A model generated the notes under the pieces. It was given only the letters and a program-made list of their open reading frames with translations. It ran no database searches and was not told the DNA's origin. A stretch of DNA of 47,129 nt. Origin: a virus. The number at the start of each line of letters is the position of its first letter. Position 1 is the first letter of the stretch. Of this stretch, positions 18,229 through 45,351 are shown one piece after another. The stretch spans positions 1 through 47,129 of the IMG/VR virus record IMGVR_UViG_3300048591_000481, one strand, 5' to 3'. The position numbers and the translations under genes were made by a program.

Positions 18229-19632
18229 ATGCCAAATACATTCTTAGATGAATTAGCCAAAATAAACTCACAGAACTTCTTAGGTGGTCTTACTAAGATG
18301 GGTGAGTCTATAAAGGGTATTAGACAGAACGAAGCTGTTAATGATTTATATAATGAGTTTCGTATTAAAAATCAAGGTGTAAAAAGTACTGATGAACAAT
18401 TATCAGGATTGAATGAAGAGATGCTAAAGTCTATTGATTTTAGCAAGCCAGATGCTATTGAAAGATTTGGAGAAAAAACAGCTAACGCTACTGCCTATAT
18501 GAATAAGATATTAAATATGTCTGAATCTTACAGTAATATGTATCAACCGTTTATTACAGCATTTGCTACTTTAGGTGATGAAGGAGTTACAATAGCTAAT
18601 AGTTTATCACGTGAATTAGAGGGTAAGCAACAGTTATTGGAACAAAAGAGTAAGATACCATTAATGCAGGTACAGCAAGAAATGGAAAAGATACAATATG
18701 GTAGGACTATACAAGAGTATCGAATGAACGAAGAAGAATATGAGCAATATAAAAAGCAATTAAATACTAATAATGGTGTACAGCAACTTGAAGGTATTAT
18801 TCGTTCTTTACCAGAGTATAATAATATGCCTGACCAAACTCAAGTACATTCGTCACAAAAACTTGCTGTTTTTAATAAAGCAAAAAATGACGTAATAAGT
18901 AAGACACTACAAATTGCTAAGGAACGTGGATTAAACGTAAGTGAAGAAGCAATAGGGCTTGCATTCAAAAGTACGTTATCAACTGATAAAAAGTCTATCT
19001 TGTCGGAACTTAAACCTTCAGATTATCCTGTTAGTGAACAAGCACAAGCATCAGCCACTTATAAGAATATGTATGATAATTATAAAATATTAATGGAAAC
19101 TGCTACTAATAAATATTCTAATGTTTATAATAGTGCAATAGAAGATGAAGAGTCTTTGTTAATACGAGGTGCTTTAGAAAAATTAAGGGATGCTAATAAT
19201 GGAGGAAGAATTAATGCTTCAAAAGCATACGAGTTAATGGAAGCTGAGCAAATGACAAGAGAAGAGTATAATGCTTTATTTAATCCTACAAATGGATTTT
19301 ATACTTTATTTGCTCCTGGTGGATTATATGATACAGCACAAAATTGGATGAACCAAAATGTAATGGGATGGAATACTATGACAGATAAAAACGGTAATAA
19401 ACTACCTGCTGTGCCAGATACAGAAAATATTATGAGGTATAAGGGTCAAGGTGCAGCTATTAATTGGGATGGCTCTTGGGTACATAATCCAGCTGAAATT
19501 CTTCGTCAGCGTAAAATTAAACAGAATGAAGCAAAAGAATTAATGAATAAGAAAAGTAAAGAATCAGTTATTCCGAGAGGAGAAAAATCATCACTTCCAT
19601 CACGCCCATATTCTTGGATGAAATATGAGTAA
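18229..19632 (+). CDS. ejection / internal virion protein
   Basis: A 467-residue, helix-rich and Gln/Asn/Glu-rich protein with no membrane segment. It follows the glycine-zipper protein and overlaps the giant protein by eight bases. A long coiled region (about residues 125-190: LEQKSKIPLMQVQQEME and following) is seen. Such mid-size helical proteins form the internal core or channel of podoviral ejection systems. GGAAGAGG is the ribosome site. Confidence 0.68.
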   Translation: MPNTFLDELAKINSQNFLGGLTKMGESIKGIRQNEAVNDLYNEFRIKNQGVKSTDEQLSGLNEEMLKSIDFSKPDAIERFGEKTANATAYMNKILNMSESYSNMYQPFITAFATLGDEGVTIANSLSRELEGKQQLLEQKSKIPLMQVQQEMEKIQYGRTIQEYRMNEEEYEQYKKQLNTNNGVQQLEGIIRSLPEYNNMPDQTQVHSSQKLAVFNKAKNDVISKTLQIAKERGLNVSEEAIGLAFKSTLSTDKKSILSELKPSDYPVSEQAQASATYKNMYDNYKILMETATNKYSNVYNSAIEDEESLLIRGALEKLRDANNGGRINASKAYELMEAEQMTREEYNALFNPTNGFYTLFAPGGLYDTAQNWMNQNVMGWNTMTDKNGNKLPAVPDTENIMRYKGQGAAINWDGSWVHNPAEILRQRKIKQNEAKELMNKKSKESVIPRGEKSSLPSRPYSWMKYE

Positions 19633-22600
19633 GAAAATAAAACAATTAACTCCGAACCAGATGCCTATTACAGGTAGCTATAATATGGATTGGGGAGACG
19701 TTAAAATACAACCACGTGGAGTAGGGTTAGATGTAGAAAGCGATTTGCAAATTACACAGCAGAATGAACAGCTTATACAATACCTTACATCTCCTGAATA
19801 CCAGAAGCAACAGACACAAGAACTTAATAGAGTTCTTAAGACTGTAGTGGGTCGTAATTTATTCAATGAAGATAATACGATAGACACAACTTCTCAAGCA
19901 TTTACTGAAGAAGAAATGGGATTTATGGATTCTTCTCAGAAACCGTTTGCCAAAATATTTAATGATTTATATGAGAATAAAGGTGTAGTATATGAAGAAG
20001 ATTTAGCATCTAAGATGTTAAATAATTCTATGACAAATGGTTGGGTCAAGATGATTTCTGGTTATAGTATGGGAGATTCTATGCCAGATTTGAAACTTAC
20101 CAACAATGGATTTACTTATGAGGGCAAGCAATTAAAATTAGATGGTGATGAAAGTAAAGTATTATCAGATTATTATGAAACTAAAAAAGGGATAAACAGA
20201 GAAAAGTCCTTTATAGAAGATGTTGCAACAATAGCAGGTTCTTTAATAGTTGATTTACCCTTAATGTATCTTACAGGTGGAGCGGTTGGGGCAGGGATGA
20301 AGGCTGCAGGTACAATAGGTAAAGCAGGTATGGTAGCTAATAGTGGGTGGGCAGGTAGATTAGTTAATCAAGCCGTACAACAGTCTGTACAATTTAATGT
20401 TATGGGAATACCACAAACTGCTGAAGCATATCAAGATTCTGGTGCTGGTGGTGCGATAAATTCAGTATGGCATAATTCACAGATGGGTGTACTTGGTGCA
20501 AGCACAGGTTCTCTTGGCAGATTAACGTCAGCCAAAGCTATTGCAAAATTATTAAATGATAAACCTGCATTAGCTGAGGAGATAGGTGGTGTATTAGGAG
20601 CTTTTGGATTTGGTGCAGTTTCAAGCAAAATAAGTGGAGAGAGTTATAGGGATGCATTAGCATCTGGTTTAGCTATGGCAGGTACTCATTTTACTAATCC
20701 ATCAGCTATGAACAGAGTAATAGCAGAGCAGAAAAGAAGTGGCAAAGCTATCTATACAGAAGAATGGAATGGTAAAGGCAAACCAACTAATTTCTCACAA
20801 TCATATTTTATAGAGGAAAATGGTTCTTTATTCCAGATAGATGCACATAAAGTATTGTCAAAAGGGGTTATCGAAAAGACTTCTAAAGTTCCATTAAAAT
20901 TAACAGATAGTTATAAGAGATATAATGAAACTGAGAACCACGTGTTAATTACATTTGGTCAAGCATTAAGTAATGAAAGATTATCAAGAGAATCAAAAAA
21001 ATTATATGATAGATGGAGTAAAGAATTAGAACCTGAATATGTTAAAGCCAATGAAGACAAATTACAAATACTTTCATTAGCAACTGCAGGTCAAGTTATA
21101 GTTGGTAAAACTGAAAAGTTATTTAATAAAGTAAGCATACCAGAAGATGCAGTATTAAATGATAAGATAATAGAATTATCTAATAATTATGAGATACCAT
21201 ATTCAGATGTTAAGAAATACATCATTAGTAATATGCCAGAATATTTTGCTAATCCTGATAAATTAAAAAGTTTTATTAAGGGTACTTATGAACCAGAAGG
21301 TTCAAGACAGTTTAATGAGTTATATGATTATACTGCAGGTTTATTACTCAAGAAAGTAACTAACACTATCAATAGGGCTAAGATACAATATTCTGCAGAG
21401 AAGCTGATAGAATTTCAGAGTACACTTAGGGAAGAAGAATTACCAAGACAGGAAGCGATTAAGAAACCTTATGAGAAAATGCCAGCTTTAATTAATATAG
21501 AGAATGCAGTTGTTCCTAATAATATATTAATAAATAAAGATGGTATGCCATTAGAATCTACAAAATTAGCAGGGCTAACTGAACAAGAAAGAATAAACGC
21601 TAATAAGCCATTGTGGATTTATACAGGTATGGGAGAAGGGAAAGAAGTACCTGTTGCTTATGACGGCAGAAGAGTTACAATAGCAGGTGTAGAATTAAAT
21701 GAACGTCAGACAAAAGAAGTGATAGATAATAATAATCTGTTATCAAAGAGTGAATTTAACCAAGCTGATAAAAAAGCAGTTAAAGATGCTAAGATAAAGA
21801 ATGAACAATCAACACCTGTCGTAGGTTCTAAGATTACATATAAACTTGGTGATAAGAAAGTATCAGCAGAAATAACTGCAGTTAGGAATAATAGTTTATA
21901 TGTTGTAAAGAATGAAAAAGGTGAACAGACTACTGTAAGTCTTGATAACATTATTAAGGTTACAAACCCTAAGCCACCTAAAGCAACTGAAACTCCTAAA
22001 GAGCCAATTAAAACTGAATTAAAACCAGAAGAAGTTGTTCCAGAAACTGTTAAGCCAGAAGAGATTACTGTTGATAATAAAGAAGAAACTGTTCCTGTTA
22101 TAAAAGAACCTATCAGTGAAGAAGTTAAAGTAGCCACTGAAAAAGTTGAGGTAATAGATAAAGTTAAAGAACAGATTAATAAAGAATTAAGTGATGAAAA
22201 GTTACCAACTGAAGAAAAGGAAAAATTAGCCGAAATAATTACACAATTAGAAACAGAACAAAAAGAACTGATAGAAAAGCATAATATTAAAAAAGAAGAA
22301 AAAGTACCTGCAGAAGAGCCAAAAATCGTGCCTCAAATTGAGAATACGAACACAGAGCCTCAAGGCGAGGCGAGCGTTAAAAAGCCAATAGAAACTATTG
22401 ACAAGCCAACGAACGAGCCACCACGAGCTTCTATTAAAGCCGAAATTGAGGATAAATCTTATAATATTAGAACTGAAGCGGAAGGAATAGTATCTTCTTT
22501 AGAATCATCTAAAAGAAATAAATTAAACTATACTGAAACTCTTAAAGGTATTAATAGGGCTTATAAGATGGCAGAAGATTTAGCCGAAACACTTAATAAA

Positions 22601-25600
22601 CAACAAAAAGATGTTAAAGTAAAGCCTATCCATATAATGAATTGGTTATTACACTCACATGGATTATCTGATGTCCAGATAGAAGCATTATTAAAAGCAT
22701 CGAAAAAAGATTTTTTATCTGCTAAAGGGTTACAATCTAATAGAAAAAATAAAGTAGGTACTTTCTTAGAAGAAAATCTGGTTGGGAAAATAAAGCCCAG
22801 AAGTTTAGAAGTGAAAGATATTAGTGCAAATGAAGTAGCAACTACTGACTTATCAATTGTGAATAAAATCGGGTCTAACACTTATGAATCTGAAACAGAC
22901 CCTATTGTCAAATCAGCAATAGAAATAATGAAAGGGGAAGGATTAGACCCATTTAGTAAGAAAGATATTGAGGAAGCATCTCTTGCTGGACTTATAGAAG
23001 ATACAGAAAGAAAATATCTTCTCAAGAATTTGAGGACACCTAAAGTAACACCTAATAAATCATTAAGAGGTTTACCTGTTGAAGATATTAGACAGATTAA
23101 TGAAATGAAAAAGATGGTTGAAAAAGGTCAAATGAAACAGGAGGAATTTGACAGATTATTAAAAGAAGGATATGGAATTGAATCTTTAGAAGACCCTGCT
23201 AAAATAGAATATGAAAAAAATAAATCTGAAGTTAAAGATATATTAAATAGACCTGGAAGTTTTCCATCACAATTAGAAGCATTAGCACCATTAACTAAAA
23301 TGGGATTATACCATCTTGAGAGGATAGTAAAATCTGGTGTAGAGAAAGCAGGACATTTTAGCGAATGGGCTAAAGATATGATTAAAGAAGTAGGTGATAA
23401 AGTAATACCTTATCTGACTAAGATATGGAATAATATTAAAGCATATAGTACAGGTGAAAAAGCATTTCTTAATCCTAATACTTTAGGGATGATAGGTGGT
23501 GAATTAAAGAAAGAGAAAAAGACCATAATAGAAGTAATGAAAGATACTAAACCTGAAGCTGTAGAAGACCAAATGGAAATATTAGCTGAGATGCACGATA
23601 GATGGCAAGCAAGAAGAAAAATTCCAGGTGAAGATAATTCTACTTATGATAAATTCAGAAGTAATAAAATAGTACGTAAGTTATATAATATAGGTGATAC
23701 CTTAGTAAAAGCAGCTATCCAAAATCGTAATTGGGCAGACCAAAGAGATGCAACAACAGGTAAGTTAAAACATGAGTTTGGTAATAGGATGTATCATCAT
23801 CTCGAAAAAGGTATATTAGATGTTAAGCATGATATTAATACTTTACTTGAGAATAAAGAAGGATGGAATAAAGGTAAAGAGTTTGATGAATTAAGAGATG
23901 GTAAAGAAAGATATACATCTAAGAGAGGGAAATATTTTAATGATGTAGCAGATGGCAAAAGAGAAATTCTGGAAAGAGATGTAGAAAAAGGGGAAACCTT
24001 TGAAGCATTCATAGAAAGAGCTGGTAAAGAATTAGGAATGACTACTGAAGAAATAAATGTTGAGAAGCATTATCAAACTACTGCTAAACAAGCATATGAG
24101 AAACAAAAAGAAGGATATGGTGATTTCTTATTTAATTCTACTCAAGGTATGGACGGTAAAGAAACATTAGCTATGGGACTTTCAGATAAAGAAATTAAAA
24201 AAATATTTGGTGATAGCATAGATAATAAATTGAAAGGTGCAGAATTAGAAAAAGAAGCCAATAAGATACTCGGTAAAGATGAAGATTTGAAGAATAAAGT
24301 TGTGGATTATTTAACTGATAAATTATATCCTGAAAACAATGCATTATATAATAATGATGTTAGACCTTCAGACCCAAAAATATGGCAGATAAGAGGAAGT
24401 AAACCATTAGACGTTAAAGGAGAAATCGCTAAGACACCTGAAGAAATAGCAGAATGGCAGACGTTCCTTAGTTATGGGGAGAATGAAAAACAAGCTAAAC
24501 AAAAAGCTGATGAGCATATAAAATTAGGATTTTCTATCGACAGCATAGATAGAATAGGTGATATAATAAAAAGAGGTGAATATGATAAATTAACTGCCAA
24601 CCAATTAATGAACCTTGTTAATCTTGGTAATATTGAAGCTAACAATCCTGTTATACATTCTTTAATGAATGCTATTAAATCAGGTACATACGACCAGCAT
24701 AGAATAAAGAAAAGATATATACGAGGTATGCACCATACTCCAAAAGAGTTTGAATTAGGTGTAACGAGTTTAATTAATGAAGCAGTTAGTTCTTCTACAC
24801 GCAGATATAATTTATCAGAAGCACGTGATATGATAGCATCTTATCAAGACTTTCATAACGAGCAAATGAAATCTACCATTAAAACTAATGCAGAAAAAGA
24901 TAGAATGAAAAACGAACTTGAGTATTCTATACAGATGTATAATCAGGTTTCTCGTTCTGATAAATCTTTTATTGATGCTTGGAGACAAGGGGCTACTGCA
25001 TATTATATTGGTATGAAGCCAGCGTTTTGGTTTCAACAGGCAATGCAACCTTTACAGACTACTTTACCTGAAGCAATAGCAGAGGTTAAAGGTACTATTC
25101 TTAATGGAGCAGAAGTATGGAAAAATGCATTCGGTACTTCTATTGAATTATCTAAAGTGTTAAATGCAAAGCGTAAAGGTGAAAAATATGAGACTTCATT
25201 ATCTAAAGAATATTTAGAGATGTATGAGATAATGGATGCTAAAGAGATAATGGGTTCAGTAGGGATGGAAGAATTAACAGGTGGTGGCAGGGATACAGAA
25301 ATGAAATATGGTTCAGACTTATATAAGGGCTGGAATAAGATGTTAAAGATAATGAATCTTGGTGGAGCTGCAGTTGAAAAGTTTACAAGGTTTCAAGCAT
25401 TCTCTACATTTTATGAAATAGGTAAAGCTAAGAATTTATCAGGCAAAGAATTAGAAACTTATATTGAGACTAAAATACAAGATGTAATGAGTTCGTGGGG
25501 AGCAATAGATAGACCTGCTGTATTTCAGTCTAAACAGTTAGGGAAGAGTGAACAGAAAGTATTGAAGGCTATTGATAAAGCATTCTTCACTTTTAGAACG

Positions 25601-26488
25601 TTCTCTAATGCTAATACAGGACAATATGACAGACTATATAGAAATAATAATATGGGGATAGCAGGACTAAAATTATTAGTTGGTACAGGTATGCATGGAG
25701 TTACCAAAGTACCATTTGCGGCTACTGTATTTGCTTTAATTGATTTATTTACTGAAGATGATTCTGAATATGAAACATTGAAATTGTTAGATGAATTAAA
25801 CGAAAAAGTGGGATTCAGAATGGGTTCAATTATAGGCAAAGGTGTCCCATCAGCTTTTGGTGAAATAAACTTTCAGAACTTATTCGATGAACGTTCTTCA
25901 TTCGCAACAGATGTATATGTACAAACAAGGTCAAAAAGCGTTGAAGGTAAATTAGCAGATGCTATGTTCGGTGCACCTTATGGATTAAGTAAAGATATAT
26001 TAGAAGGAAGCACTGCATTAGCTAAAGTATTGCAACAACAGATTAGAGAAGATGTTACGATAGATGAAGAAGAAAAGAGAAGAGCAATTAATACCAGCAG
26101 AAAATTATTACCATTATCATTAAGAAATATATTAGCTTCAATGTCGTTAGCGAAAGATGGTGTGGAAGTTAAAGGTAAATCTTTAATTAAAGCTGAAGAT
26201 ATATCTTGGTCTGATGTAGTATATAAAGCATTAAGTTTCAATCCTGCTAAAGTATCTGATGCTTATGAATATCAATTTAATGGTACGCCAGCTAAACTTT
26301 CACGTATCAAAGGTAAACAGATAGAAATAAAAAGAATCAGAAAAGAAATATTACAATCAGAAGATTATACACCTGAAGAAAAAAGACGACAAGTAAAAAT
26401 AGCAAATGAAAAATTAAAAGAAGCACAAGTAAGAGAAGCTGAATTAACTAAACAACTAAAAATGGAACAAAGGAGAAACAAAAAATGA
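19625..26488 (+). CDS. giant ejection / polyvalent internal virion protein
   Basis: A 2287-residue protein, about 15% of the window. From the N-terminus: a soluble region (1-195); a hydrophobic Gly/Ala-rich segment (about 205-360) that may insert in membrane; a helical region (about 430-640); an SH3-like beta segment (about 735-785: VVGSKITYKLGDKKV); a Pro/Glu/Lys-rich low-complexity linker (about 785-950); helical domains including a WAKDMI...VIPYLTKIW motif (about 1245) seen in large phage polyvalent proteins; and a C-terminal part with hydrophobic helices (about 1785-2050) and a basic coiled end. It is presumably packaged in the capsid and injected. No lysozyme, protease or polymerase motif was recognised. 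Confidence 0.75.
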   Translation: MSKKIKQLTPNQMPITGSYNMDWGDVKIQPRGVGLDVESDLQITQQNEQLIQYLTSPEYQKQQTQELNRVLKTVVGRNLFNEDNTIDTTSQAFTEEEMGFMDSSQKPFAKIFNDLYENKGVVYEEDLASKMLNNSMTNGWVKMISGYSMGDSMPDLKLTNNGFTYEGKQLKLDGDESKVLSDYYETKKGINREKSFIEDVATIAGSLIVDLPLMYLTGGAVGAGMKAAGTIGKAGMVANSGWAGRLVNQAVQQSVQFNVMGIPQTAEAYQDSGAGGAINSVWHNSQMGVLGASTGSLGRLTSAKAIAKLLNDKPALAEEIGGVLGAFGFGAVSSKISGESYRDALASGLAMAGTHFTNPSAMNRVIAEQKRSGKAIYTEEWNGKGKPTNFSQSYFIEENGSLFQIDAHKVLSKGVIEKTSKVPLKLTDSYKRYNETENHVLITFGQALSNERLSRESKKLYDRWSKELEPEYVKANEDKLQILSLATAGQVIVGKTEKLFNKVSIPEDAVLNDKIIELSNNYEIPYSDVKKYIISNMPEYFANPDKLKSFIKGTYEPEGSRQFNELYDYTAGLLLKKVTNTINRAKIQYSAEKLIEFQSTLREEELPRQEAIKKPYEKMPALINIENAVVPNNILINKDGMPLESTKLAGLTEQERINANKPLWIYTGMGEGKEVPVAYDGRRVTIAGVELNERQTKEVIDNNNLLSKSEFNQADKKAVKDAKIKNEQSTPVVGSKITYKLGDKKVSAEITAVRNNSLYVVKNEKGEQTTVSLDNIIKVTNPKPPKATETPKEPIKTELKPEEVVPETVKPEEITVDNKEETVPVIKEPISEEVKVATEKVEVIDKVKEQINKELSDEKLPTEEKEKLAEIITQLETEQKELIEKHNIKKEEKVPAEEPKIVPQIENTNTEPQGEASVKKPIETIDKPTNEPPRASIKAEIEDKSYNIRTEAEGIVSSLESSKRNKLNYTETLKGINRAYKMAEDLAETLNKQQKDVKVKPIHIMNWLLHSHGLSDVQIEALLKASKKDFLSAKGLQSNRKNKVGTFLEENLVGKIKPRSLEVKDISANEVATTDLSIVNKIGSNTYESETDPIVKSAIEIMKGEGLDPFSKKDIEEASLAGLIEDTERKYLLKNLRTPKVTPNKSLRGLPVEDIRQINEMKKMVEKGQMKQEEFDRLLKEGYGIESLEDPAKIEYEKNKSEVKDILNRPGSFPSQLEALAPLTKMGLYHLERIVKSGVEKAGHFSEWAKDMIKEVGDKVIPYLTKIWNNIKAYSTGEKAFLNPNTLGMIGGELKKEKKTIIEVMKDTKPEAVEDQMEILAEMHDRWQARRKIPGEDNSTYDKFRSNKIVRKLYNIGDTLVKAAIQNRNWADQRDATTGKLKHEFGNRMYHHLEKGILDVKHDINTLLENKEGWNKGKEFDELRDGKERYTSKRGKYFNDVADGKREILERDVEKGETFEAFIERAGKELGMTTEEINVEKHYQTTAKQAYEKQKEGYGDFLFNSTQGMDGKETLAMGLSDKEIKKIFGDSIDNKLKGAELEKEANKILGKDEDLKNKVVDYLTDKLYPENNALYNNDVRPSDPKIWQIRGSKPLDVKGEIAKTPEEIAEWQTFLSYGENEKQAKQKADEHIKLGFSIDSIDRIGDIIKRGEYDKLTANQLMNLVNLGNIEANNPVIHSLMNAIKSGTYDQHRIKKRYIRGMHHTPKEFELGVTSLINEAVSSSTRRYNLSEARDMIASYQDFHNEQMKSTIKTNAEKDRMKNELEYSIQMYNQVSRSDKSFIDAWRQGATAYYIGMKPAFWFQQAMQPLQTTLPEAIAEVKGTILNGAEVWKNAFGTSIELSKVLNAKRKGEKYETSLSKEYLEMYEIMDAKEIMGSVGMEELTGGGRDTEMKYGSDLYKGWNKMLKIMNLGGAAVEKFTRFQAFSTFYEIGKAKNLSGKELETYIETKIQDVMSSWGAIDRPAVFQSKQLGKSEQKVLKAIDKAFFTFRTFSNANTGQYDRLYRNNNMGIAGLKLLVGTGMHGVTKVPFAATVFALIDLFTEDDSEYETLKLLDELNEKVGFRMGSIIGKGVPSAFGEINFQNLFDERSSFATDVYVQTRSKSVEGKLADAMFGAPYGLSKDILEGSTALAKVLQQQIREDVTIDEEEKRRAINTSRKLLPLSLRNILASMSLAKDGVEVKGKSLIKAEDISWSDVVYKALSFNPAKVSDAYEYQFNGTPAKLSRIKGKQIEIKRIRKEILQSEDYTPEEKRRQVKIANEKLKEAQVREAELTKQLKMEQRRNKK

Positions 26489-41361: not shown

Positions 41362-41389
41362 AACAAAAAAAGGAACAGAAATCTGTTCC
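41362..41389 (-). terminator. intrinsic terminator
   Basis: On the minus strand a hairpin GGAACAGA / TCTGTTCC with a two-base loop (41372-41389) is followed by a T7 run (41365-41371). It lies after the 41416 gene and just before the exonuclease gene. It would reduce read-through into the recombination genes. Confidence 0.82.
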
Positions 41390-41415
41390 CCTTTATGTAA
41401 TTTTATGTTAATAAA

Positions 41416-41892
41416 TTATTCTGTAACCTGAACTTCAGGCTTAGCTTTTAATCTTGGTATTGCAAATGATACTCTTGCACCTGTCATCAAGCTGTTTAAC
41501 TGTTTACTAATATCATATATCTGATTGACCAATCTGATATACTCTTCAACATTCTCTGATGATACAGAACGTTCTTCAGCACCTTCAACTGTATTAAGAC
41601 GTGTAGAAGAACCAGATGTCCCTGTTCTTTCTTTTTTAGATGATTTCATAAATCCTGTTTTATCAAGATACTGTTGAAAATCTTCTGGATTAACATCAGG
41701 ATTCTTTTCATAGAATTTTGGTAACTCACTTTCAAATAAGAATATACCATTATTCTTTCTGACAAATTCTGCATTAACTACAGCTCTTTCAAGATTTTCT
41801 TCAGGTGTACTTCCTAATAATCCACCTGTGTACATTTCATAAAAAGATTTAATTGTACCTAACCGCACTTCCAACTTATCACGTTTAGCCAT
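41416..41892 (-). CDS. hypothetical protein with its own promoter
   Basis: A 158-residue protein. The first 80 residues are charged and helical, a Ser/Thr/Gly-rich linker follows (about 85-110: KERTGTSGSSTRLN), and a helical second part (EEYIRLVNQIYDISKQL). AAAGGAAG is the ribosome site. It has a consensus promoter upstream and a terminator downstream, so it is a separate strongly expressed unit next to the ubiquitin-like genes. Function unknown. Confidence 0.68.
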   Translation of the reverse strand: MAKRDKLEVRLGTIKSFYEMYTGGLLGSTPEENLERAVVNAEFVRKNNGIFLFESELPKFYEKNPDVNPEDFQQYLDKTGFMKSSKKERTGTSGSSTRLNTVEGAEERSVSSENVEEYIRLVNQIYDISKQLNSLMTGARVSFAIPRLKAKPEVQVTE

Positions 41893-42027: not shown

Positions 42028-42918
42028 TTATTGTTTCAGCAATTCAATAATGTTTTTAGATGGTTCTGGTAAATTACTTTTAGTATAGAATATTCTTACA
42101 GCATCATTAATAGAGGTGTATATAATGCTATTAAATTTTAATTCATTTTTTCTGGTGTTGTATAATATTGTATCACCTGTGTAAACACTCACTATTGAAA
42201 TAGTATGTGATGATTCATATTTTTCAACTAAATATTCCATTTCATTTGCAATCTCTTTTAAGATTTCAGCAATCTTAAAATCACCTTTAATATATGAACT
42301 AAAATCTCTTCTGGGTGGTGTATAATCTTTAGATACTCTATTATAATAACCTTCATAATTAGGAGTAGAAAATCTGGTAGGTGTATAAGCTGTTACTCTC
42401 TCTTCAATTATTTTCTTCTCAGGTCTTCTACATTTAGCTAATACCTCTTTAGATATTTTATCATTATCATAATATCTGATTAATTCTAAATTAATCGTAA
42501 CGGGTTCTGTTAATTCTATTCCACCACATCCTTCTATTTTAACTGTATCAAGACGTGCTGAATATTCACCTTTACAATTCACAATTATTGTGATAATCGA
42601 AGGCATTATTTTTAACATTTGTTTAATGTTTCCTAAATCACCATATTCTCCTGAAGGAGTGCAGGACATATCTACGTGGCTATGCCATTGTACTAACATA
42701 TCCGACATATCATAATTAATATCATTCATTATGTCGTTAGGGAAGTTATTCACTTCACTTCCCTCTACAATCTGTTCGCATAAAGGGGCAAGTTTATATA
42801 TGCCCCTGTCATTATTGTAATGACCCCATCCTGCAATTTCAGAACTAAAATGTTTTTTAGCATAGAATGCGTATTCAAACATTTGCTGAAATACTTCATC
42901 TTTTATTTTAATTTTCAT
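42028..42918 (-). CDS. JAB/JAMM isopeptidase
   Basis: A 296-residue protein. Residues 1-130 are a JAB/MPN domain: Glu27 (SSEIAGWG), then QWHSHVDMSCTPSG with His79 and His81, Ser89 and Asp94. The usual spacing Ser-x2-Asp is stretched to Ser-x4-Asp, with Glu91 between. Such enzymes remove ubiquitin-like modifiers from targets. A second part (about 140-296) is unrecognised: linker (PTRFSTPNYEGYY) then helical region. It overlaps the E1-like gene by four bases, so deconjugation is expressed with activation. Confidence 0.85.
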   Translation of the reverse strand: MKIKIKDEVFQQMFEYAFYAKKHFSSEIAGWGHYNNDRGIYKLAPLCEQIVEGSEVNNFPNDIMNDINYDMSDMLVQWHSHVDMSCTPSGEYGDLGNIKQMLKIMPSIITIIVNCKGEYSARLDTVKIEGCGGIELTEPVTINLELIRYYDNDKISKEVLAKCRRPEKKIIEERVTAYTPTRFSTPNYEGYYNRVSKDYTPPRRDFSSYIKGDFKIAEILKEIANEMEYLVEKYESSHTISIVSVYTGDTILYNTRKNELKFNSIIYTSINDAVRIFYTKSNLPEPSKNIIELLKQ

Positions 42919-43682
42919 ATTTTTGCTATATTCTCCTTTGTTAAGGGCATTGTACCATTCTGTTCTGTTGCATTATTTTCTCGTGCAGTCATAATCCACG
43001 CTTGACCTGTGCTATAATCGTGGAAACTATGTAAAGCAGGATGGTATTTCTCCATAGCTAATGTCCTATAACGTCCGATTAATTCTGCACTTACTGCCAT
43101 ACTTGTGTCAATTATTGATTGACCTGAACAGGGTAACTGTATTGCTTCTTCGTTTGTATGAAGTGTTTTCTCATAGAACTGACATTCTTTCTTAACCCAT
43201 AACCTAATTCCATAAATATTTGCATATAATCCTCCTGTTCTGCTATCTAATAAGATAGTTCTTGTCCCTCTGTAATTCTTAAAAATATTTTTTCTGCTTT
43301 CCATATCATCTACCGCAGTGATAACAGTTGTGATTTTTCTATAATTTCTCAGGAAATCTGGTGGTATTTCTTCATACTTACCATTAAATGTGTTGATAGT
43401 AACATCTTTTACTATCAAATTTATGGTAGTCTTTAACACTTCTACCTTGAATAAGTCATCTGTTAAATCTAAAGATTCAGCAAAAAACTGATTTGGCAAA
43501 TTATGTGCTTCTACAATATCATAATCTACAAGTGTTAACTGTTTAACACCCATTCTTGCTAATCCAAATGCTGTGTAAGAGCCGATTGCTCCAGCTCCTA
43601 CTATTAAAACGTGTGCATCTTTGTCCCGCAATGGGTCGTAAAAATTTAACCCACGCCATGAATCTGCTATAATTTTTCCCAT
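42915..43682 (-). CDS. E1/ThiF-like modifier-activating enzyme
   Basis: A 255-residue Rossmann-fold adenylating enzyme. The ATP site GAGAIGS (29-35) follows VLIV, LVDYD (51-55) holds the ribose/Mg acidic residues, and TAVDDMESR (122-130) is the usual second Asp region. The Arg-finger position reads NLPNQ (61-65) rather than N-x-x-R-Q. Cys185 in LPCSGQSIIDTS is a candidate thioester Cys, followed by the usual helix. No Ubl-recruiting extra domain is fused. It activates a modifier by C-terminal adenylation. AAGGAG precedes the ATG; it ends in the JAB start. Confidence 0.88.
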   Translation of the reverse strand: MGKIIADSWRGLNFYDPLRDKDAHVLIVGAGAIGSYTAFGLARMGVKQLTLVDYDIVEAHNLPNQFFAESLDLTDDLFKVEVLKTTINLIVKDVTINTFNGKYEEIPPDFLRNYRKITTVITAVDDMESRKNIFKNYRGTRTILLDSRTGGLYANIYGIRLWVKKECQFYEKTLHTNEEAIQLPCSGQSIIDTSMAVSAELIGRYRTLAMEKYHPALHSFHDYSTGQAWIMTARENNATEQNGTMPLTKENIAKI

Positions 43683-43683
43683 T

Positions 43684-44706
43684 TTATGCTCCTTGTGTTT
43701 GTGTATTAATTTGTGTATTACATTGTGGATTTGAACATTCTCCTAAATACATATATGAATTGCATCTTGTACATAATGTTTCTCCCACAGATTGTGTATT
43801 AAAAAATTCTTTACTTGTTTTACCCGATTTAGGTAAAGCATATTTCATAAATAATAAAATTTTACTAATGTCTGTTATGCTGATAAAAGGATTCTCAGGG
43901 TAATAACTTCTTACTGAAGTATTAATCAAGTCAACTATAAAAGCATAATTTTTATTATTTATATAATTCTCCATATCTCCTGTTCTATTGCCGTAACATA
44001 TAGAACCACTTATATGTGGATGTAGGGTACGACTAAAACCAAACCATTCCCTCCATTCCCTGTCATAATACCAGTCATTGAAATAATACTTGACGTTTAA
44101 TAGGTTAAAATCACTATTAAATGTTAATATTATCTTTTTATAATTGATATATCCTTCTGCTTCATTGCCAATACAAACCTTATTAAATTCCATATCAAAT
44201 TCTCCATTACTTTCATTTAGAGTGAATTTAATACGGTATTTTTTACAATACTTATGAAGCTCTTTATAATCAAATGGTTTGTAATCTTGCATCTCACCAT
44301 ATTTAACAGCTATATTCTTCTGGATTGAAATTATCTCTTCAACCCAGCTTTGTATTATATTATATCTGGTTCTATTATTTGCAAAAATTTCCCCAGAACG
44401 TTTAGCTTCAGAGTTTGATAATCCCTGTATCCTTGATATAATATATATAAGTAAATCACTCTCTGCTTCTGCATATGCAGTATAATATATATCTTTTTCA
44501 GTGTCTCTTACTATATAATATTGGTTGTCACTTGACATTAAAACATTTCCTTTCAGTCTCACTGAAGAAGCCATCTCTCTAAAAGATGTTTCGGATACTA
44601 TATGTATCTTTTTTGCTATTTCATCTACATATTGGTAAGATTCACGTAAATGGAATGCAATGTTAATTTTAATTTTTTCATTAAAATTAATTCTTTCACT
44701 TAACAT
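43684..44706 (-). CDS. E2-like conjugating enzyme with C-terminal zinc knuckle
   Basis: A 340-residue protein from the ATG at 44706, which has a perfect GGAGG upstream. Residues about 140-300 have the E2 pattern: the strands INYKKIILTFNSDFN and WREWFGFSRT, then HPHISGSIC (229-237) with Cys237 as the likely catalytic residue, and the following YGNRTGDM. In E2s the HP(N/H) and GxIC segments are the hallmark. A four-Cys zinc knuckle closes it: CTRC (312-315), CSNPQC (324-329). The first 135 residues are a helical domain of unknown role. It would carry the modifier to a substrate. Confidence 0.78.
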   Translation of the reverse strand: MLSERINFNEKIKINIAFHLRESYQYVDEIAKKIHIVSETSFREMASSVRLKGNVLMSSDNQYYIVRDTEKDIYYTAYAEAESDLLIYIISRIQGLSNSEAKRSGEIFANNRTRYNIIQSWVEEIISIQKNIAVKYGEMQDYKPFDYKELHKYCKKYRIKFTLNESNGEFDMEFNKVCIGNEAEGYINYKKIILTFNSDFNLLNVKYYFNDWYYDREWREWFGFSRTLHPHISGSICYGNRTGDMENYINNKNYAFIVDLINTSVRSYYPENPFISITDISKILLFMKYALPKSGKTSKEFFNTQSVGETLCTRCNSYMYLGECSNPQCNTQINTQTQGA

Positions 44707-44717
44707 TTTTCCTCCAT

Positions 44718-44749
44718 AAAAAAAAGGCATCACGATTAAGCAATGCCTT
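44718..44749 (-). terminator. intrinsic terminator between modifier and enzyme genes
   Basis: On the minus strand a hairpin AAGGCAT / ATGCCTT (arms 44743-44749 and 44724-44730), extendable by C-G and G-U pairs, then a T-run (44718-44725, partly in the stem). It begins 13 bases after the modifier stop and lies just before the GGAGG of the E2-like gene. Confidence 0.82.
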
Positions 44750-44761
44750 GTTAATTAATTA

Positions 44762-45052
44762 TCAGTTATTCTTAGTTTTTACACCGATTCTGATAATGTC
44801 CTCTTTACTTAATGGTGTCTCGAAGTCTTGGACTGGTATTCCATTGACGCTGACTTCATAACCAGCGATGTTCATATCCTCAACGAATTCTTTAATCGTT
44901 GTGCCAGCTTTTACTGTTAAAATTTCTGGCAATTTAGCTGGACATTGGAAATTAACTTTGAATGTCTTAGCTTTGAATGTCTTAGCTTTGACAGTTTTAG
45001 CCACTTTAGTAGTGGTCTTTTTTGGAGCTGTTGCTTTTTTTGTGGTAGCCAT
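44762..45052 (-). CDS. ubiquitin-like beta-grasp modifier
   Basis: A 96-residue protein. Residues 1-32 are a Lys/Ala/Thr-rich basic tail with a KAKTF repeat. Residues 33-96 fit a beta-grasp fold: TFKVNFQCP, ILTVKAGTTIKEFVEDMNI (helix), YEVSVNGIPVQDFETPL, SKEDIIRIG. The VNG and the ...EDIIRIG strand match the ThiS/MoaD/ubiquitin-like order. The C-terminus is VKTKNN; where ThiS ends in GG, this ends in NN, so the usual di-Gly is absent. GGAG lies before the ATG. It is the first of four genes with E2, E1 and JAB partners. Confidence 0.75.
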   Translation of the reverse strand: MATTKKATAPKKTTTKVAKTVKAKTFKAKTFKVNFQCPAKLPEILTVKAGTTIKEFVEDMNIAGYEVSVNGIPVQDFETPLSKEDIIRIGVKTKNN

Positions 45053-45182: not shown

Positions 45183-45211
45183 TTTAACCTCCATTATATT
45201 GATAAAAAATA

Positions 45212-45351
45212 GGATATGGCAGGACTCGAACCTGCATTGTCTCTTATCATAGACTACTGAGTGTTGGCAACCCTCGAAGCGCACAGGCTTCACTCATTCC
45301 ATCCACTGTAATCAGTATGATAACAGAGTTTTATCATTAAATTACATATCC
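45212..45351 (-). tRNA. 140-nt tRNA-like element with extended anticodon arm (C)
   Basis: On the minus strand: 7-bp acceptor GGATATG / CATATCC (10 bp if flanks are included), a D-arm-like ATTTAATGATAAAAC, a five-base variable loop and a perfect T-arm GCAGG-TTCGAGT-CCTGC. Where the anticodon arm should be, a long helix CTCT(G)TTATCATA / TATGATAAGAG encloses about 63 bases with an inner GAAGC/GCTTC hairpin. The CAT in the ATCATAC segment resembles an anticodon loop but cannot be closed normally. No CCA is encoded. It might be a tRNA with an insertion or a tmRNA-like RNA. Confidence 0.5.

Follow-up and report, generated by a model that had tools for sequence, protein, structure and literature searches.

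A phage-borne set of ubiquitin-like modifier, E2, E1 and JAB genes and its predicted function in protein conjugation

The window analysed here, the entire 47,129-base IMG/VR phage record IMGVR_UViG_3300048591_000481, was confirmed to hold a complete set of genes for a ubiquitin-like modifier (Ubl), an E2-like protein, an E1/ThiF-like activating enzyme and a JAB peptidase. Judged by its sequence, the set most probably constitutes a reversible ubiquitin-like conjugation system encoded by the phage itself. The initial annotation had located the four genes on the minus strand, and all four open reading frames (ORFs) were found there, transcribed in the order Ubl, E2, E1 and JAB (45052-42028; Table 1) and positioned directly upstream of the replication arm genes. 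This minus-strand arm encoded a methyltransferase, a DnaB-like helicase, an Erf annealing protein and an exonuclease; the large terminase and portal genes were on the plus strand. The gene context thereby supported the earlier description of a full set carried by a phage in its replication arm and outside the tail genes. The E2, E1 and JAB genes were closely spaced, with a GGAGG sequence ahead of E2 and a GGAG sequence ahead of E1.

The window proteins were searched as single sequences, which identified the E1 clearly (ThiF family PF00899, E=2.8e-26), the JAB weakly, and gave no support for the E2 or the Ubl. Therefore, the identity of the genes was decided by comparison with their relatives. 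Profiles were built without the window sequence and run against the 345 six-frame ORF segments of the window. Each gene was recovered as the best of the 345 ORFs by its profile, with E-values of 2.5e-5 for the Ubl, 7.6e-12 for the E2 core, 7e-13 for the JAB and 4.1e-29 for the E1. Hence, the four genes were not chance calls.

A search for the four-gene neighbourhood, which had been proposed as a check, yielded cassettes in about 17 divergent phages. The carriers included the crAss-like phages cr126_1 and cr85_1, Flavobacterium phage Fpv3, the jumbo Xanthomonas phage PhiXhv-15 (no separate JAB gene appeared in the part that was read), a phage from human feces and a series of IMG/VR contigs. The annotation of cr126_1 also points to homologs of ThiF and the metalloprotease in phiCrAss001. 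One locus with an E1 only, on a very long branch (L021), was left out of this count. The main gene orders were Ubl-E1-JAB-E2, Ubl-E2-JAB-E1 and the Ubl-E2-E1-JAB order of the window, and an IMG/VR phage (L001) contained the same four genes in an order different from that of the window. Since the genes recurred in divergent phages while their order shifted, they appear to be held together by function. In the members from crAss-like and Flavobacterium phages, the Ubl-like domain was extended at length on its C-terminal side and the motif of the E2-like protein was HSH...C; both the E2 and the Ubl of these members were assigned by position and motif only. The neighbours of the related loci were listed and partly annotated; in a Pfam search, 8 of 10 neighbour proteins had no match, and the other two were a DNA polymerase A in L001 and a protein with an AAA domain in L012. 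A link between the cassette and replication genes was thus suggested on the basis of some loci, not all.

No match was obtained when the E2 of the window or of L001 was compared by tblastn with 50,697 phage records. DNA patterns of the window-type E2 motif found nothing in IMG/VR, and those of a second E2 type (group A) returned only contigs that were already known. Among GTDB genomes with E1 relatives, none of 34 loci contained the phage-type E1, JAB and E2 together as judged by motif; this search was limited by its patterns and does not imply absence from chromosomes. The open-access papers searched did not describe the phage cassette family, although an earlier description is possible in closed papers and preprints, which were outside this scope. 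A 2021 review of jumbo phages mentioned neither JAB, ThiF nor Ubl.

Profiles built from alignments of the phage loci were compared with the PDB. The E1 profile matched UBA5, ThiF and E1 structures, and MccB was among its PDB relatives. Cys185 of the window E1 was invariant in an alignment of the E1s of 7 phages (A5), and each of the 19 phage E1s listed had a Cys-[S/T/G] motif. Together with the PF00899 match, this upheld the assignment of an E1/ThiF-like enzyme with the GAGAIGS motif and Cys185. In a maximum-likelihood tree, from which Bil and CBASS E1s were left out, the 19 phage E1s including that of the window formed one clade (98/93), separate from both the PRTRC clade (100/99) and other bacterial ThiF proteins (94/90).

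The JAB profile matched RPN11 (1.8e-10), CSN5 and JAMM1. H79, S80, H81, S89 and D94 were invariant across the JAB alignment of 18 phages, and Glu27 lined up with a Glu in the non-crAss members, in agreement with the catalytic residues Glu27, His79, His81 and Asp94 named previously.

The most likely start of the E2 was the ATG at 44706 behind the GGAGG sequence, which gives a protein of 340 aa and places the Cys of the HPHISGSIC motif at position 237, as numbered before. Nearly all of the other aligned phage E2s had the HPH...C motif too. The only PDB match of the E2 profile below E=5 was the weak one to UBE2T (E=1.8), where HPH...C was aligned onto HPN...C and the alignment continued across the NPDDP stretch. 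Because the model of the window E2 core was poor, prediction was repeated on a homologous E2 whose alignment was denser. This group A protein (L020) was modelled with a predicted local distance difference test score (pLDDT) of 90.1 and a predicted template modelling score (pTM) of 0.86, and showed a helix, a strand meander, the HPH-Cys motif and two helices. In a Foldseek search against the PDB, 49 of its 50 best matches were ubiquitin-conjugating enzymes (best E 0.026); against predicted viral proteins, the best matches (E up to 0.0016) were unnamed or uncharacterised. The window-group and group A E2s were homologous by hhalign (E=1.7e-9). Indirect support was thus obtained, through a modelled homologous member, for a ubiquitin-conjugating (UBC) fold with an active-site Cys in the window E2. 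No phage E2 reached the gathering cut-off of the Pfam families UQ_con and Prok-E2 (one member matched UQ_con at E=0.022), and the NCBIfam PRTRC_B model matched none of 16 phage E2s. It was also observed that several phage E2s have Cys-rich, probably zinc-binding C-termini (L004:1822-4500, L008:3772-4932 and window 43720-43773); these could function in the binding of targets or in E3-like binding.

The Ubl displayed a ThiS/SAMP2-like pattern, AGTTIKEFVEDM...VNG...LSKEDIIRIGVKTKNN, preceded by a basic N-terminal tail. A profile of 12 phage Ubls matched SAMP2 in the PDB at 3.6e-5, and some phage Ubls matched the ThiS family at 9e-5; along with the leave-one-out result, the SAMP2 match bore out the earlier claim of a beta-grasp modifier. 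Matches of the window Ubl to DNA methylases were judged to be noise. Related Ubls ended in KKKGG, KVKGG, ASGG or AKGN, or carried tails; group A Ubls had KGN ends, except for two ending in NA or NG. As a separate observation, Ubl-like domains of the crAss-like and Flavobacterium phages were N-terminal in longer proteins (L006:817-1743, L007:1460-2116, L003:1107-1976 and L026:3413-3949), where KxIRSGA, KSGG or similar sequences stood at the end of the domain, as if it were cut there.

A terminator-like hairpin (dG -12.5, z -2.8) was found in the gap between the Ubl and E2 genes of the window. Of 17 cassettes, 12 had such a hairpin 3' of the Ubl gene, compared with 5 of 56 other co-directional gaps of the same loci (Fisher p=1.4e-6, an optimistic value since related cassettes are not independent), and shuffled sequences gave one in 1% of cases. 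A few of the 12 hairpin-bearing cassettes had weak T runs, and in L011 and L014 hairpins with T runs were missed by the strict rule. The position of the hairpin behind the Ubl gene suggested a predicted attenuator that would keep the Ubl in surplus over the enzymes, as a tag that is consumed would need.

From the genes, their homology, catalytic residues, recurrence and attenuator-like hairpins, we infer the chemistry and the target as follows. The Ubl would be made in surplus, read-through into the enzyme genes being limited by the hairpin. The E1 would adenylate the Ubl C-terminus and hold the Ubl as a thioester on Cys185, from which it would be passed to Cys237 of the E2. The E2 would then couple it to a target protein at an amino group, and the JAB would mature the Ubl where it is tailed and strip it off targets. 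Because the cassette lies in the replication arm, the likeliest targets would be proteins of genome replication or early takeover, either the phage's own recombination and replication proteins or host proteins, including those of defence. The roles offered in the initial annotation, namely the marking of host or virion proteins, opposition to a Bil-like system or a part in replication, likewise stay hypothetical.

Table 1. Features of the cassette and its surroundings in the window
Feature	Position	Strand	Evidence or remark
Ubl modifier, 96 aa, beta-grasp	44762..45052	-	leave-one-out profile E=2.5e-5
Terminator-like hairpin in the Ubl-E2 gap; 10-bp stem followed by a T run	44724..44749	-	
E2-like (UBC) protein, 340 aa, HPHISGSIC, Cys237	43684..44706	-	leave-one-out E=7.6e-12
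Possible zinc-binding Cys cluster, E2 C-terminus (CTRC...CSNPQC)	43720..43773	-	inferred from sequence
E1/ThiF-like activating enzyme, 255 aa, GAGAIGS, DYD, NLPNQ, Cys185	42915..43682	-	
JAB/JAMM metalloprotease, 296 aa, Glu27, HSH (79-81), Ser89, Asp94; start overlaps E1 stop by 4 nt	42028..42918	-	
158-aa gene, function unassigned	41416..41892	-	same strand as cassette

Further, the set was compared with known systems. Its nearest known kind is the bacterial Ubl-E2-JAB-E1 operon (type 6d and PRTRC) without the other genes of that operon. In operon type 6d, the Ubl, JAB, E1 and E2 are encoded as separate genes (Iyer et al. 2006, PMC1779556), and the gene order of PRTRC plasmids is C-F-B-A-ThiF; in the phages, too, the four components were separate neighbouring genes, and the Ubl-E2-JAB-E1 order of several related phages resembled C-(F)-B-A-ThiF. 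Profiles of the phage E1 (8e-19) and JAB (1.8e-5) matched those of PRTRC, PRTRC Ubls have K-G at or near the C-terminus, and one PRTRC plasmid had a strong hairpin behind its Ubl gene. However, the E2 profiles met only at C-x-G-N (E=0.008), the Ubl profiles did not match, and the phage E1s formed a separate clade lacking the NxxRQ Arg. The PRTRC_ThiF model score was 21.7 against a cut-off of 144.75. ParB-related, E- and F-like genes were not seen among the neighbours of the window cassette. Type 6d E2s are without the classical His (PMC1779556), whereas the phage E2s keep the HPH motif. The relation to PRTRC drawn in the initial annotation thus stood for the E1, the JAB and the gene order in related phages, but came down to C-x-G-N for the E2 and to the K-G end for the Ubl. 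As far as can be predicted, the window set works like the 6d/PRTRC core and does not qualify as a member of PRTRC. A PRTRC-like set was also noticed in a Nitrospira metagenome-assembled genome (L078:7337-9598, minus strand), its E2 sequence HPNGAVCFGNATA being nearer to the window-type HPHISGSICYGN than those of other PRTRC B proteins are.

The coupling of a Ubl and a JAB in a phage has a precedent in the lambda tail assembly proteins I and K (PMC1779556), which differ from the present set by their placement in the tail module and the lack of an E1 and E2. As described in the literature, Bil has in common with the window set a Ubl conjugated by an E1 and an E2 and a deconjugating peptidase. 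It is a host operon whereas the window set is phage-borne; the PADLOC E1-E2 models matched the phage E1 only. Host Bil systems reportedly attach the Ubl to phage structural proteins (Hor et al. 2024, cited in PMC13373217), and a JAB alone could remove such tags. It was therefore considered, as an unlikely alternative, that the set does no tagging of its own but disturbs a host Bil- or PRTRC-like system through a Ubl that competes or a JAB that deconjugates. While a JAB alone would do for this purpose, about 17 phages kept the E1, E2 and Ubl as a full set whose active sites were conserved, and the phage E1s formed a deep clade of their own rather than stemming from a recently captured host set.

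Another likeness was found to the archaeal SAMP2/UbaA/JAMM1 system, since the phage Ubl profile matched SAMP2 best and the JAB profile matched JAMM1 and RPN11. No E2 is known from the archaeal system, whereas the phage set has one. Because the Ubl and E1 resemble ThiS/SAMP2 and ThiF, sulfur-carrier or cofactor chemistry of the ThiS/MoaD/CysO kind was weighed, in which the Ubl, activated by the E1, would bear sulfur as a thiocarboxylate, the JAB would free the product and the E2-like protein would have an accessory part. Clusters of ThiS, E1 and JAB for sulfur assimilation are known (Table 1 of PMC1779556). However, nearly all cassettes included an E2 of UBC fold whose His and Cys were conserved, no rhodanese, sulfur transferase or biosynthetic genes were seen near the window cassette, and its neighbours were the replication genes for the exonuclease, Erf and DnaB-like helicase, which makes such chemistry improbable.

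Several observations weigh against conjugation in the window phage. The window Ubl ends in VKTKNN without the terminal Gly that most relatives have, and judging from its residues, cleavage cannot expose a Gly at the usual place. The Ubl of L005 likewise has no Gly there. In all 19 phage E1s, the NxxRQ Arg of PRTRC and typical ThiF proteins is replaced by N, G, S or C, so the handling of ATP may differ. The branch leading to the window E1 is long, at 2.0 changes per site, and the exact placement of this E1 is unsure. The window JAB reads HSHVDMSCTPSGEYGD and, compared to all 17 relatives, is two residues longer in the stretch from Ser89 to Asp94. Finally, the fold check of the E2 was answered in part: the homologous group A E2 resembles UBC, but none of its individual Foldseek PDB matches was significant, and the AlphaFold2 model of the window E2 core alone was of low confidence (pLDDT 52) and uninformative in Foldseek.

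Bacterial Ubl families without a C-terminal Gly have been reported (Iyer et al. 2006, PMC1779556); hence, the KNN end lowers the likelihood of conjugation-like working and does not exclude it. The activation of Asn by an E1-like fold also has a precedent, as MccB uses a succinimide route to act on a C-terminal Asn, though it forms no thioester (PMC12250964). MccB-like chemistry was accordingly considered, in which the E1 would activate the terminal Asn of the Ubl, possibly via a succinimide, giving a nucleotidylated or unusually bonded Ubl. The terminal or near-terminal Asn of the window (NN) and group A (KGN) Ubls, the kinship of the phage E1 profile with MccB and the absence of the NxxRQ Arg are in line with it. 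Yet other Ubls of the same E1 clade end in GG, the two exceptional group A Ubls end in NA or NG, and the phage E1s retain a Cys and accompany an E2 where MccB makes no thioester, so that this chemistry is also given very little weight. A cassette that is vestigial or no longer functional in the window phage is just as improbable, for although the KNN end, the JAB loop and the long E1 branch depart from the relatives, the four frames are intact and closely spaced, with ribosome-binding sites and catalytic residues kept.

Phage-encoded reversible conjugation was accordingly preferred. A broader proposal, on which our judgement is evenly divided, is that the cassettes form a separate, old and phage-specific class of Ubl conjugation across unrelated phages (crAss-like, Flavobacterium, jumbo and others). 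It would be marked by its own E1 clade without the NxxRQ Arg, an HPH-Cys E2, an attenuator between the Ubl and the enzymes and some Asn-ending modifiers, and it would serve the infection cycle of the phages rather than being a captured defence. What is known of bacterial Ubl conjugation concerns mainly the machinery of hosts, part of it directed against phages; if the proposed function is true, bacterial viruses, including crAss-like gut phages, tag proteins too. Candidate functions would be provided for genes of cultured phages labelled 'thiamine biosynthesis protein ThiF', 'metalloprotease' or 'hypothetical'. The tagged proteins in infection, the effect of deletion and the use of an Asn-ending modifier by the E1 and E2 become accessible to direct tests.

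Some further features were recorded in the window. The gene of unassigned function in Table 1 possibly belongs to the cassette operon; its HECT match (E=0.039) was judged to be noise, and a strong terminator-like hairpin with a 12-bp stem was located 3' of it (41367-41394, minus strand). A tRNA-Gly(GCC) gene was found just upstream of the Ubl gene (45211-45304, minus strand), followed downstream by a second tRNA-like stretch with GGTTCAAACC (about 45175-45098, minus strand), for which ARAGORN made no call. On the plus strand, a protein of 2,287 aa without any PHROG match was encoded at 19625-26488.

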